Part shown: piece after piece, positions 61,301 to 64,000 of the stretch | Layout: each line of letters starts with the position of its first letter | Numbering within the stretch: position 1 is the first letter of the stretch | From: Kibdelosporangium philippinense | Lineage (GTDB): Bacteria > Actinomycetota > Actinomycetes > Mycobacteriales > Pseudonocardiaceae | Direction: 5' to 3' | Assembly (NCBI RefSeq): GCF_021390435.2 | Contig: NZ_JAJVCN010000001.1 | Span: 1,364,001-1,428,000, forward strand | DNA length: 64,000 nt | Program-made: the position numbers and the translations under genes | Notes under the pieces: model-generated | Databases searched by the model: none | What the model was told of the DNA's origin: nothing | Seen by the model: the letters and a program-made list of their open reading frames with translations, nothing else

Positions 61301-64000
61301 GCTGCCCTCCGCGGAGCGGGATCTCCTGTTGCGCCAGTGGAACGCGACCTCTCGGGAGACCGGACAGGCCACCACGATCGAGCTGTTCGAACGGCAGGTT
61401 GCTGCCAGTCCGGACGGCATCGCGCTGGTGTGCGGGGACGCCCGGTTGAGCTACGCCGAGCTGGATGCCCGCGCGAACCGGCTCGCGCATCACTTGGTAT
61501 CGCTGGGAATCAGGCCCGAGCAGATGGTCGCACTGGCCATCCAGCGGACGCCCGAACTGCTGGTCGCCATGCTCGCGGTGATGAAAACGGGCGCGATCTA
61601 CCTGCCACTCGACCTGGACCACCCAAGCGAACGCCTTGCGTACATGGTGGAAGACGCAGCCCCGGTCCTGGCGCTGACCAGCGGCGAGGCCGTCCTTGAG
61701 GGCACGCCGTGCCTGTCGCTCACCGACCCCGGCTTGGTCGCCACTATGGCGGGCCACCAGGCGACCAAGCCGGACCTGACCATGCCACCTCGTCTGGACA
61801 ACGCGGCTTACTCGCTCTACACGTCCGGCTCCACCGGTAAGCCGAAGGGTGTGGTGGTCACCCGTGGCAACCTGACCAACTTCGTGCTGGACATGAAGGA
61901 CCGGACCGGGATGACCCCGGCGGACCGGCTGCTTGCCGTGACGACCATCGGCTTCGACATCGCGCACCTTGAGTTGTTCGTGCCGCTGATCAGCGGTGCG
62001 ACCGTGGTACTGGCGCAGAAGGAACTGGTCCTCGACCCCCAGGAGCTGCGCCGGATCGTGCGCGACGAGGGCGTGACGGTCGTGCAGGCGACGCCGAGCT
62101 TGTGGCGTGGCGTGGCCGATGCCGCCCCTGATGTGCTCGCTCGGATCCGTGTGCTCGTCGGCGGTGAGGCGTTGCCGACTGAACTGGCCGAGGCGCTGAC
62201 AACGGGGTCGCCGTCGGTGACAAACGTTTACGGCCCAACGGAAACCACAATCTGGTCCACTGCGGCTGAGCTGGTGCGTGGCGCGGGTGCGCCGCCGATT
62301 GGCAAGCCGATCGCCAACACCCGGGTGTACGTGCTCGATGCTGGTCTTTCATTGGTTCCGCCTGGTGTTCCGGGGGAGCTCTACATCGCTGGTGAAGGTG
62401 TGGCGCGGGGTTACGCGAATCGGCCCGACCTGACCGCCGGCCGGTTCGTCGCCGATCCGTTCGGGCCTGCGGGCGAGCGGATGTATCGCACCGGTGACGT
62501 GGTCCGGTGGAGCGCTGACGGGGTACTGGAGTTCATTGGCCGGGTCGACGACCAGGTCAAGATCAGGGGCTTCCGGATCGAGCTCGGCGAGATCGAGACC
62601 GTGCTGGACAGCCATGATGCGGTGGGCTCGGCTGTGGTGGTGGCGCGCGAGGACCGGCCGGGCGACAAGCAGCTGGTGGCGTACTACGTGCCCGCCGGGG
62701 ACGTACAGCCCTCGGAGCTCAAGGCGCACCTGCGGGAGTTCCTGCCGTCGTACATGGTGCCCGCGTTCTTCGTGGCGATGGACGTGTTCCCGTTGACGCC
62801 AAGTGGAAAGGTCAACCGGCGCGCGCTGCCCGCCCCTGGTGTGGTGGTCGACGCTGACAAGCCGCGCGTCGCGCCGCGTGACGAGACCGAGGCCGCGCTC
62901 GCCGAGATCTGGGCGGACGTGCTCGGTCACCCGGTCTCCGTTATCGACGTGACCGGCGACTTCTTCGAGCTGGGCGGCAACTCGGTGCTCAGCGTGCAGG
63001 TCGTGTTCCGGGCGCGACGCGCTGGGTGGCGCATCGTGCCGAAGGACCTGTTCTCGTATCCGACCATCGAACGCTTGGCTACGGTCGCCGTACGGGCTGG
63101 TGAACCCACGGTCGCTCCGTCGCCCGTGGAGGTGGCCGTCGCTGCGCCGGTTGTCGAGCACGTTGTGGCTCCGGCAGTTAGCCATTCGTTTCTGGCCGCG
63201 CGGCTCGCTTCGTTGGCGCAGGCGCATCGAGTGCCGGGCGCGCAGCTTGCCGTACGCCACCGGGGGCAGCTGATCGTTGTCGAGACAGGGGAGCGGGCAG
63301 CAGGACTGCCAGTTACCACGGACACTGCGTTCCCCATAGCCTCGCTCACCAAGCCCGTGACCGCGCTGCTCGTACAGTTGCTCGCGGCAGAGGGGCGACT
63401 CGACCTCGATGCTCCTATTGGCGCGTATCTGCCCGAGCTGTCTGCTGTGAGTCCGGTTGGTCGTGTGACTCCGCGACAGATCCTGAGTCACACGAGCGGG
63501 CTCATCGCCGCGATCGATGAGCGTGTGCCGAGCGCATCTCGGCGCGAGTGGGTTGAGCGGCACTGTGACTCGACGGCCGTGGCTTACGAGCCGGGCACGG
63601 TGTTCTCGTACTCCGACGTTGGTTACGTGCTTGCGGGCCGTCTCGTGGAGGTGCTGACCGGCAAGGACTGGCGGACCGTCGTGGAGTCGATGGTGCTGGC
63701 GCCGCTCGGGATCTCAGGTGCGCGTCAGGTCGCACAAGGGCATGTGGTGGGAGACCGACTGATTCCCGTGCCTGAACAGTCATTCACTCCGATCGACGAC
63801 CCCGCTGCCGGGTTGGTGGCCAGCGCGGCTGACCTCGTGCGCCTGGCCGCGTCCGGGATGTTCCGCGACGAGACCGGCGACATCGCCATCGGGCCGTTCG
63901 GCCTCGCGGACGGCTGGGGGCTTGGTTGGGCTGTGTACGGCGGCAAATGGAACGGGCATGACGGCAGTGGCGACGGTACGTGGTCGCACCTGCGTTTCGA
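55326..64000 (+). CDS. Non-ribosomal peptide synthetase, modules 3-4: C-A-T-E-C-A-T-PBP-type release domain (right edge open)
   Basis: From ATG 55326 the frame stays open to the edge (2891 codons). C3 (about 40-470) has HHIIGDGWS. A3 has YTSGTTGKPKG. T3 has GGDSILSLQV. An epimerization domain (about 1100-1555) has HHYVVDAVSW, EGHGRE and NYHGRF. C4 (about 1567-2000) has HHLLLDGWS. A4 has YTSGSTGKPKG and a glycine-type pocket. T4 has GGNSVLSVQV (around 2550). After a Val/Ala/Pro linker comes a beta-lactamase/PBP-like domain: SLTK with Ser2673 and Lys2676, YSD with Tyr2762, HDG with His2878. This replaces a normal thioesterase. The stop is beyond 64000. Confidence 0.92.
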   Translation, partial: MDLPLAAELPDHLRELLMRQLAGAAEPAPGDRSIPVASRDGALPLSVSQQGLWFLTELDPGSVEYNAPRVLRLSGELDVEALRAALDGVVARHEALRTTIGEVEGRGVQVVHEPGRVPVEIVDLSDLSEPSAELDRCLKREAATPFDLRRGPLLRVTLVRLAADEHVLLLGLHHIIGDGWSISILVNELNASYAARVSNEPVELPDLPIQFADFAVWQQERLAGPEVAGQVDYWRRQLAGLSPVELPTDRPRPPVRGSKGAVYEIAVPAQLTQRLTELAARNNSTLFMTLVAASQLLFSRYSGQHDIAVASVTAGRSRVELENVIGYFSNTVVLRSTVDESRSFNDFLGDVRSTVLDAFANDEVPFQRLVDTLRPERDPSRPPLAQVMVTLQNAPEGKAELPGLRVTDVEPPMHVAKLDVSFDFFEADGALTGIVEYSTELFDQATIERMTGHLLTLLDNVAAQPDEPMQALSMLTEPELHQLRTAWNGPVVEYGASQCVHELFDAQVALTPNAVAVSCAGEELSFAGLAARSNQLARHLMSMGVGPGTLVGVCVERGVDAMVALLGVLKAGAAFVPLDPDYPAQRLSMMLEDAAAPVVITQTSVLDRVYGHDGAVVCLDRDRPVLDALPDGPPESGVTVDDLVYVIYTSGTTGKPKGVLINHRNIHHILRAWNAQYGLDEIRGRAVCVASFGVDLFFGDFLFSALFGGEMVVCPAEVVTDPPALVDLIAEVQPQILATTPSLARAITAELAWRNSTALHSLRLLSLGAEGWLAGDCADMLEHCGPDTLVVNAYGATETTVDSTVFALRGDPVEPSPIVPIGKPMVNTTVYVVDSQRRPVPIGVAGELYIGGDGIAQGYWQRPELTTERFPHDVLGPGTGRFYRTGDVVRWRNDGNLEYLGRADDQVKIRGFRVELGEVETALTRHPDVAAAAATTRKGEGGHTRLVGYVVPAGTRTPDLAELRAFLAGNLPAQAVPSAIVALDALPMTPNGTLDRRALPEVVDEPEADLSRRLPPRNPVEAALVDVWAKVLGVEPDRIGVEDNFFNLGGDSILSLQVVSLARRSNLRLTTKQMFLRQTIAELAGEVTVLAATGAEQGPVTGPMPLTPVQHWYFEEFPDTPGHFNQSLFLELDSSVDAGALRTAFAAVHDHHDALRIRAERVGGTWRQHNAAPEDRTVFEMVNLSSLNPAAQDEAMRAAITSAQTGFDVRTGPLFTGVLFNLGDRAPRLFVAAHHYVVDAVSWRVILADLETAHSQVVSGQKVDLGAKSTSFKDWAHRLNGLVAEGGFDAELEYWTQVERATVDAPTLPVDHLGHNTVGSARTLTRRLNADRTDALLRKVPEAYRTQVNDVLLSALARVLRDWTGGNVPVELEGHGREDLFGDVDLSRTVGWFTTVFPIALELPASEDWGDTLKAVKEQLRAVPSRGLGYGALRYLGEPGSLGQGRQCQVGFNYHGRFDAGSDTGLVRGWCANPVPDRSADQARQLLIDVTGMVRDGELEFGWEYSPDILREETVARLADAFLAALEQIVEHCALPGSGGCTPSDFPLAGLNQAGVDRIAGDGRSIEDIYPLTPMQSGMLFHSLDSDGGDVYLTHFAATLDGVDDPARLAAAFQRVVDRTPILRTAIAGWDVDIPFQVVHRDVQLPVTHLDLSGADSAAELQSLWESLPSLELDLAEAPLMRLTIARLSATSVRVFWSSHHLLLDGWSFADVLAQVFEEHAGSAAPNPRRPYRDYVQWLAEQDGAAAEAYWRRTMAGFTAATPLPFDRAPLTAHGSRSSRDVNLALSAESSRRLYEFAKNARLTVNTVVQGAWALLLARHSGERDVCFGATVSGRPGELAGADEIVGLFINTLPVRATVDGSQDLVSWLRRMQDEQVEARQFEHVSLAQVRSWSEVPRESGVFDSLVIFESFPYDRDAASRYGLVVRDSTGAEETNYALTLTAFTTDELHLRLGYDPRLFDADTVQRIAERLATVLDAFADHAEAPLVRLPALPSAERDLLLRQWNATSRETGQATTIELFERQVAASPDGIALVCGDARLSYAELDARANRLAHHLVSLGIRPEQMVALAIQRTPELLVAMLAVMKTGAIYLPLDLDHPSERLAYMVEDAAPVLALTSGEAVLEGTPCLSLTDPGLVATMAGHQATKPDLTMPPRLDNAAYSLYTSGSTGKPKGVVVTRGNLTNFVLDMKDRTGMTPADRLLAVTTIGFDIAHLELFVPLISGATVVLAQKELVLDPQELRRIVRDEGVTVVQATPSLWRGVADAAPDVLARIRVLVGGEALPTELAEALTTGSPSVTNVYGPTETTIWSTAAELVRGAGAPPIGKPIANTRVYVLDAGLSLVPPGVPGELYIAGEGVARGYANRPDLTAGRFVADPFGPAGERMYRTGDVVRWSADGVLEFIGRVDDQVKIRGFRIELGEIETVLDSHDAVGSAVVVAREDRPGDKQLVAYYVPAGDVQPSELKAHLREFLPSYMVPAFFVAMDVFPLTPSGKVNRRALPAPGVVVDADKPRVAPRDETEAALAEIWADVLGHPVSVIDVTGDFFELGGNSVLSVQVVFRARRAGWRIVPKDLFSYPTIERLATVAVRAGEPTVAPSPVEVAVAAPVVEHVVAPAVSHSFLAARLASLAQAHRVPGAQLAVRHRGQLIVVETGERAAGLPVTTDTAFPIASLTKPVTALLVQLLAAEGRLDLDAPIGAYLPELSAVSPVGRVTPRQILSHTSGLIAAIDERVPSASRREWVERHCDSTAVAYEPGTVFSYSDVGYVLAGRLVEVLTGKDWRTVVESMVLAPLGISGARQVAQGHVVGDRLIPVPEQSFTPIDDPAAGLVASAADLVRLAASGMFRDETGDIAIGPFGLADGWGLGWAVYGGKWNGHDGSGDGTWSHLRF

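Follow-up and report, generated by a model that had tools for sequence, protein, structure and literature searches.

A biffamycin-type nonribosomal peptide synthetase of Kibdelosporangium philippinense with a predicted ring-closing relative of SurE fused to its end

The last part of a 64,000-nucleotide stretch of the 12.05-Mb Kibdelosporangium philippinense genome (C2:1364001-1428000, here the window) encodes a nonribosomal peptide synthetase (NRPS) that ends in a penicillin-binding protein (PBP)-type domain. This domain very probably accepts the completed tetrapeptide on its serine and closes the ring head to tail (estimated probability, about 0.86). A fused cyclase is already published for BifB of the biffamycin cluster, where the SurE domain embedded at the protein end was called a unique observation (May 2026; PMC13285481) and the family of PBP-type thioesterases was widened to embedded forms (PMC13285481); the window copy is a further biffamycin-type case. 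A sequence-only reading of the window had proposed a cis-fused PBP-type release domain as a novelty. The fused relative of SurE and Ulm16 and the absence of a conventional release domain behind it hold, while the novelty belongs to BifB (PMC13285481), the only embedded cyclase found in the open-licence literature on PBP or beta-lactamase domains fused to NRPSs.

The frame of this BifB-like NRPS starts at position 55326 on the forward strand and stays open past the window end (55326..64000) to a stop at 64388 (L001:2326-11388), giving a protein of 3020 amino acids that closes with a complete PBP-type domain, as had been anticipated from the part inside the window. Five Pfam families were reported in the protein, with three Condensation, two AMP-binding and two PP-binding stretches and one Beta-lactamase stretch (PF00144); none of the five is a thioesterase or reductase, in line with the earlier claim that no alpha/beta-hydrolase thioesterase follows the last carrier. 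The PF00144 profile matched at the predicted place (residues 2625-2909; E-value 2e-50 for the whole protein, 1.7e-50 in a search of its own genome). By position and homology, the domain order is condensation (C), adenylation (A), carrier (T), epimerization (E), C, A, T and PBP. Module 3 comprises, on the same strand, a C domain (residues 42-483; 55449..56774; best stretch of PF00668), the A domain A3 (about residues 500-1005; 56823..58340; Pfam and A-code reading) and an E domain (about residues 1100-1540; 58623..59945), the last being a Condensation stretch assigned by position, which also served as the query for E domains in other loci, with approximate borders for A3 and E. Towards the end of the protein lie the last A domain, A4 (about residues 2021-2500; 61386..62825; Pfam and A-code reading), the last T domain (residues 2524-2586; 62895..63083; PF00550) with its phosphopantetheine site Ser2553 in an LGGNS motif, a linker rich in Ala, Pro and Val (residues 2593-2616; 63102..63173) and the PBP-type release domain (residues 2617-3020; 63174..64000, ending at 64388).

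Two ways in which the fusion could have been only apparent were rejected. No thioesterase or reductase was found hidden downstream, where the next gene encodes a major facilitator superfamily (MFS) exporter (L001:11385-12599) that overlaps the NRPS stop by four bases. A frameshift artefact, or a separate gene joined in error, is contradicted by the open frame and by the same in-frame fusion in 16 other NRPS clusters, in the genome records L003 and L004 and in genome G835. An Rfam scan of the NRPS and its neighbouring DNA (L001) gave no match. PBP-fold proteins can serve as decoys or hydrolases, which would suit a domain that the NRPS carries for self-resistance or editing while another protein acts in trans to release the peptide. 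This alternative is very improbable: no thioesterase family was found around the NRPS in a scan that covered part of the frames there, the genome held no other match to the family at an E-value ≤ 1e-40 (four of 64 first-look candidates scored), and deletion of the BifB SurE domain abolishes biffamycin A (PMC13285481).

The nearest solved relatives are the surugamide cyclase SurE (6KSU, 6KSV) and the ulleungmycin cyclase Ulm16 (8FEK). The sequence match to both is full-length, covering the PBP part and the C-terminal lipocalin-like part (from about residue 2940), and the structure of the release domain, predicted with high confidence, likewise matches both over its full length. Together these matches support a fused relative of SurE and Ulm16 and bear out the serine beta-lactamase/DD-peptidase fold, akin to SurE, that had been proposed. 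SurE shares the fold, SxxK, Tyr and His with the window domain, whereas SurE and Ulm16 are free-standing, carry a tetrad Asn and have Gly at position 235; the window domain, in place of the stand-alone, trans-acting form typical of the SurE family, lies within one 3020-residue frame. No named cyclase occurred among the best 25 of 144 NCBIfam matches.

In a tree of 109 rows (106 distinct) rooted on the R61 peptidase, the fused rows formed one group (Shimodaira-Hasegawa-like approximate likelihood ratio test, 99), which meets L006, P0021, the L005 group and the rest in an unresolved base. In a midpoint-rooted tree of 58 rows, the fused clade was supported at 100/100, and its sister (97/91) consisted of stand-alone cyclases that include L005 of Microbispora siamensis and L006 of Actinokineospora terrae. 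The domain could instead be a hydrolase that releases the tetrapeptide as a free acid, like DD-peptidases and many esterases of the fold. PF00144 includes carboxypeptidases, esterases and beta-lactamases; in the structural comparison the esterase 7spn ranks directly below the cyclases and likewise covers the C-terminal part; and Asp stands in place of the tetrad Asn. This is nevertheless improbable, since the domain branches among stand-alone relatives of known cyclases and matches SurE and Ulm16 in sequence over both parts, and since the matching biffamycin pathway yields a ring and needs the domain (PMC13285481).

Motif counts were made over 19 fused rows (18 distinct, as the PBP sequences of L003 and P0012 are identical) and 87 stand-alone rows, with P0017, P0018 and R61 set aside; seven of 120 proteins listed out of 2340 are in the 109-row tree and the counts. 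Omitted were L079 and L080 (no PBP match), L075-L078 (failing the E-value filter of 1e-30), L081 (the window itself) and L082 (a match to L005 in every domain). Ser2673, the nucleophile, and Lys2676 of the SxxK motif (63342..63353), Tyr2762 (63609..63617) and His2878 of the HDG motif (63957..63965) were located by alignment exactly where they had been claimed. The SxxK Ser and Lys are conserved throughout (19/19 fused, 87/87 stand-alone). The catalytic tetrad of PBP-type thioesterases is given as Ser, His, Asn and Lys in a 2024 review (PMC11735501); we take N156 of SurE to be the tetrad Asn. Ser, Lys and His are present in the window domain and HDG is intact, with Asp2764 in the position of the Asn. 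Asp is the third residue of motif II in all 19 fused rows (18 distinct) and in none of the stand-alone rows, which have Asn (n = 77), Ser (n = 7) or Thr (n = 3), so that ten of the 87 also lack the Asn. The YSD motif noted earlier is present in the window, but it is not the family norm, which is YSN (SurE, Ulm16 and 77 of the 87 stand-alone rows). Two further positions separate the groups: Ala precedes the nucleophile in 19/19 fused compared to 3/87 stand-alone rows, and Ser follows HDG in 19/19 fused rows and in at most 5% of the stand-alone rows.

The last module of the window NRPS has a Gly-type code and no E domain (Pfam, A-code reading). The A4 code, DILQLGVIWK, is one that we take to denote glycine, and the last module is predicted to load Gly as the ring-closing residue. 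The A3 code is DLGASGAVDT in the window and DLGASGAVDT or DLGASGAIDT in 19/19 fused rows. Ala2828 (63807..63809) aligns with Gly235 of SurE in the pocket for the C-terminal residue; the fused rows have Ala (n = 9), Val (n = 8), Ser (n = 1) or Thr (n = 1) at this position, compared to Gly (n = 77), Ala (n = 9) or Thr (n = 1) in the stand-alone rows. According to the review, SurE requires a C-terminal D-residue and refuses Gly, larger residues at position 235 turn SurE to Gly, and WolJ and Ulm16 accept Gly too (PMC11735501). Across the fused clade the pocket Gly is replaced, the last A domain reads Gly and the terminal E domain is absent. The clade appears to have exchanged the usual D-residue at the ring-closing carbonyl for Gly; its residue pocket is narrower, and Asp has taken the place of the tetrad Asn.

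In the biffamycin cluster, BifC (A-T-C-A-T) is paired with BifB (C-A-T-E-C-A-T-SurE), and BifB A4 loads Gly (PMC13285481). The window NRPS pair has the same order, and BifB of Streptomyces albidoflavus S4 shares with it the domain order, the A-T-C-A-T partner and, by family, most tailoring genes. The window differs from BifB in its organism, in its shortened domain, in the shortest tether measured and in that no BifO-like glycosyltransferase family 2 (GT2) gene was seen nearby. One of the 16 further fused NRPSs, P0016, may be BifB of S. albidoflavus itself; residue-level comparison with BifB is indirect. By analogy, the predicted product is biffamycin or a closely related compound. In the proposed mechanism, the last A domain would load Gly and module 3 would supply the adjoining D-residue. 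The peptidyl-Gly thioester on the phosphopantetheine of Ser2553 would then pass to Ser2673 via the flexible tether, and the free N-terminal amine of residue 1 would attack the acyl-enzyme, so that a biffamycin-like cyclotetrapeptide is set free, cyclo[Ile/Val-(modified Trp)-(3-OH-D-Lys)-Gly]. Export by the MFS protein would follow, with mannosylation probably by the PMT-family protein.

Several observations weigh against ring closure of this kind in the window. For BifB, the main text of the biffamycin paper gives the deletion and no in vitro cyclisation (PMC13285481), and the review reports only a small activity of SurE G235A on a Gly substrate (PMC11735501). The sister stand-alone enzymes L005, L006 and P0021-P0023 likewise have Ala at position 235, and at L005 and L006, where the context was read, the NRPS terminates in an E domain and has a last A code other than that for Gly. 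The pocket change is thus no proof of Gly use, given the weak activity of SurE G235A and these sister enzymes. The tetrad Asn is Asp, and the chemistry could therefore differ. No GT2 gene that might correspond to BifO, a polyprenyl-P-hexose synthase, was seen in the 86 kb read; PF00535 had no match at an E-value ≤ 1e-8 between C2:1311093 and C2:1790248, with GT2 taken as the putative family of BifO and Pfam run on part of the small open reading frames (ORFs). Lastly, the window PBP domain lacks stretches of 16, 7, 3, 3 and 2 residues that are present in most of five aligned fused relatives (about residues 2660-2962, mainly 63714-63941). These gaps would fit a window copy that is decaying or inactive, as would a recombinase and a DDE transposase that begin about 14 and 20 kb past the NRPS stop, and the occurrence of a clade-level score in only one of 390 family genomes. 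Decay is unlikely all the same, because the 3020-residue frame is free of internal stops, the SxxK, Tyr, His and HDG residues are all preserved, identity is 73-81% across the whole NRPS, and the domain is predicted at high confidence, though the 16-residue gap lies at a helix end ten residues before a low-confidence stretch of the predicted structure.

The sequence-only reading had offered the fusion as a view of how the cyclase docks on its carrier, an expectation that is weakened by the linker, which is long, variable and predicted to be disordered. The carrier motif and the beginning of the PBP core lie 78 residues apart in the window, the shortest distance among those measured, compared to 82-106 in 14 of the 16 relatives (the linker pattern missed P0013 and P0015). 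The tether is rich in Ala and Pro, with a predicted local distance difference test score (pLDDT) < 50 at model residues 85-106 (2593-2614). For these reasons the fused domain looks like a tethered free enzyme, and a fixed carrier-cyclase interface created by the fusion is not supported. So tethered, the enzyme probably functions as its free-standing relatives do.

The fusion was found, besides the window, in 16 NRPS clusters with identities of 65-75% in the PBP domain and 73-81% for the full-length protein. Those with a named source come from Streptomyces, Kitasatospora, Couchioplanes and Actinoplanes. The protein search used the PBP part as query and was confined to NRPS-length proteins (0.55-1.75 times the query length). 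A scan of genome contigs returned 78 loci, 72 of them actinobacterial (L003-L074), which divide into two fused and 70 stand-alone loci, all of the latter with at least one NRPS domain match in the same locus. With four first-look candidates scored per genome, a clade-level score was reached in one of 394 genomes of the class and one of 390 of the family (in both cases that of the window itself), and in one of 392 of the genus of G269 (G835). Open-frame length alone was rejected as a count of fusions, as a wrong frame can stay open in high-GC DNA. Also rejected as fusions were the 2769-residue frame of G269, where an E domain is read in frame 2 while the PBP domain belongs to a gene of its own in frame 1, and G410 and G501, whose large values stem from PBP genes upstream of an NRPS.

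The stand-alone loci point to how the fusion may have arisen. The last NRPS domain was E in 11 of 11 loci examined with an NRPS directly upstream of the PBP gene (L005, L006, L007, L033, L038, L083 and L100-L104; L099 repeats L006). In the sister group, the cyclase genes of M. siamensis and A. terrae lie directly behind an NRPS that ends C-A-T-E-C-A-T-E, and differ from the window in being separate genes, in the terminal E, in the last A code (DANSVGAVTK) and in having no Asp in motif II. At L100 and L102 a single stop codon separates the NRPS from a PBP gene that continues in the same frame. Many other loci have the PBP gene ahead of the NRPS, the end of which was not read there. Because the two nearest stand-alone cyclases whose surroundings were read lie directly behind NRPSs ending in E, we infer that the fusion arose by joining of such an NRPS with the adjacent cyclase gene, after which E was lost and the last A domain switched to loading Gly. 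The open-licence literature found does not extend to the Asp substitution, to how widely the fusion occurs or to this origin from a neighbouring gene.

A second set of about 74 NRPSs, from Streptomyces, Micromonospora, Nonomuraea and others, ends in a different PF00144 domain of 325-386 amino acids, a length that leaves no room for a lipocalin-like part. Among the 75 proteins examined (P0017, P0018 and P0140-P0212), the domain follows an A domain in 47 and an E domain in 26, and in P0160 a carrier and a long Ala-rich linker precede it. SxxK is kept in 73 of the 75, and the Tyr of motif II is replaced by Lys in 50. Like the window domain these are NRPS-terminal fusions, but identity to it is only 31-32% (measured for P0017 and P0018), and P0017 and P0018 fall outside the SurE-type group in the 109-row tree. 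In the genus of G269, 10 of 199 genomes have a match to the second set at an E-value ≤ 1e-60. No report of this set was found in the open-licence literature.

By gene family, the window contains a cluster of the biffamycin type. Beside the NRPSs are genes for an O-methyltransferase, a Trp-dioxygenase-like protein, the MFS exporter, a PMT-family transferase, a VioC-like hydroxylase, a Trp halogenase (527 amino acids), a Na/H exchanger, a flavin reductase and an MbtH protein, matching in that order BifF, E, A, P, N, K, J, I and H. Four genes on the forward strand precede the NRPS pair: the BifF-like O-methyltransferase (43736..44737; PF00891; 85% in G835), the Trp 2,3-dioxygenase-like gene (44797..45939; PF03301; 75% in G835), by analogy a BifE-like Trp 4-hydroxylase, an ATP-binding cassette (ABC) transporter ATPase (46176..46994; Pfam) and an FtsX-type permease (46988..49588; Pfam), the last two also kept in G835, with the permease beside the NRPS. 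The BifC-like NRPS (49647..55295, forward strand; Pfam, A-code reading) has the order A-T-C-A-T after about 245 N-terminal residues with the rear of a C domain. In these first 245 residues (49647-50381) only positions 391-451 of the Condensation profile match (E-value 2.8e-7; 30.0 bits, with the cut-off at 30.6), and A1 is thus preceded by a truncated C domain.

In the Actinoplanes locus L003, genes for MFS, PMT, VioC-like, halogenase and flavin reductase proteins follow (71-86% identity), and L004 has the MFS and PMT genes within the shorter reach of that locus. G835 keeps the order O-methyltransferase, Trp-dioxygenase-like, ABC, FtsX, BifC-like, BifB-like, MFS and PMT, and no halogenase, VioC-like, Na/H exchanger, flavin reductase or MbtH gene was seen in the 53 kb read. 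Given these differences in G835, the products probably vary among the clusters. A short-chain dehydrogenase/reductase gene and a flavin-containing monooxygenase-like gene adjoining the O-methyltransferase (40774-42984) are unmatched in the same 53 kb, and for that reason may lie outside the cluster core. Upstream of the cluster (31214-38838) are two luciferase-like monooxygenases, a GNAT acetyltransferase and a binding-protein-dependent ABC set (permease, ATPase and binding protein). Between the flavin reductase and MbtH genes, a 1213-residue STAND-NTPase with WD40 repeats is encoded on the minus strand (L002:2857-6498). The serine recombinase (L002:8241-9791) and the DDE transposase (L002:14657-16000; L002 starts at window +70000) lie further downstream, and their presence, along with the occurrence of the fused clade in one of 390 family genomes, hints at a horizontal arrival.

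Taken as a group, the fused PBP-type cyclases may form their own catalytic subclass, which would have arisen by gene joining and loss of the terminal epimerase, moved from D-residue to Gly closure and acquired a Ser/Lys/Tyr/Asp/His site, while a second, larger group of NRPSs gained a different PF00144 domain independently, so that fused PBP-type release would be a recurrent alternative to the classical thioesterase; the odds of this larger proposal stand about even. Cyclotetrapeptides are difficult to prepare, and with a fused PBP-type cyclase the ring would be closed on an assembly line. The fusion, described as unique for BifB, is present in 16 NRPS clusters besides that of the window (one of which may be BifB), and a second kind of terminal PF00144 domain is common among NRPSs. 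The comparison yields a short list of residues, namely the Asp for the tetrad Asn, position 235 and the Ser that follows HDG. It also offers a plausible path of evolution, from an adjacent gene behind a terminal E domain to fusion and E loss.

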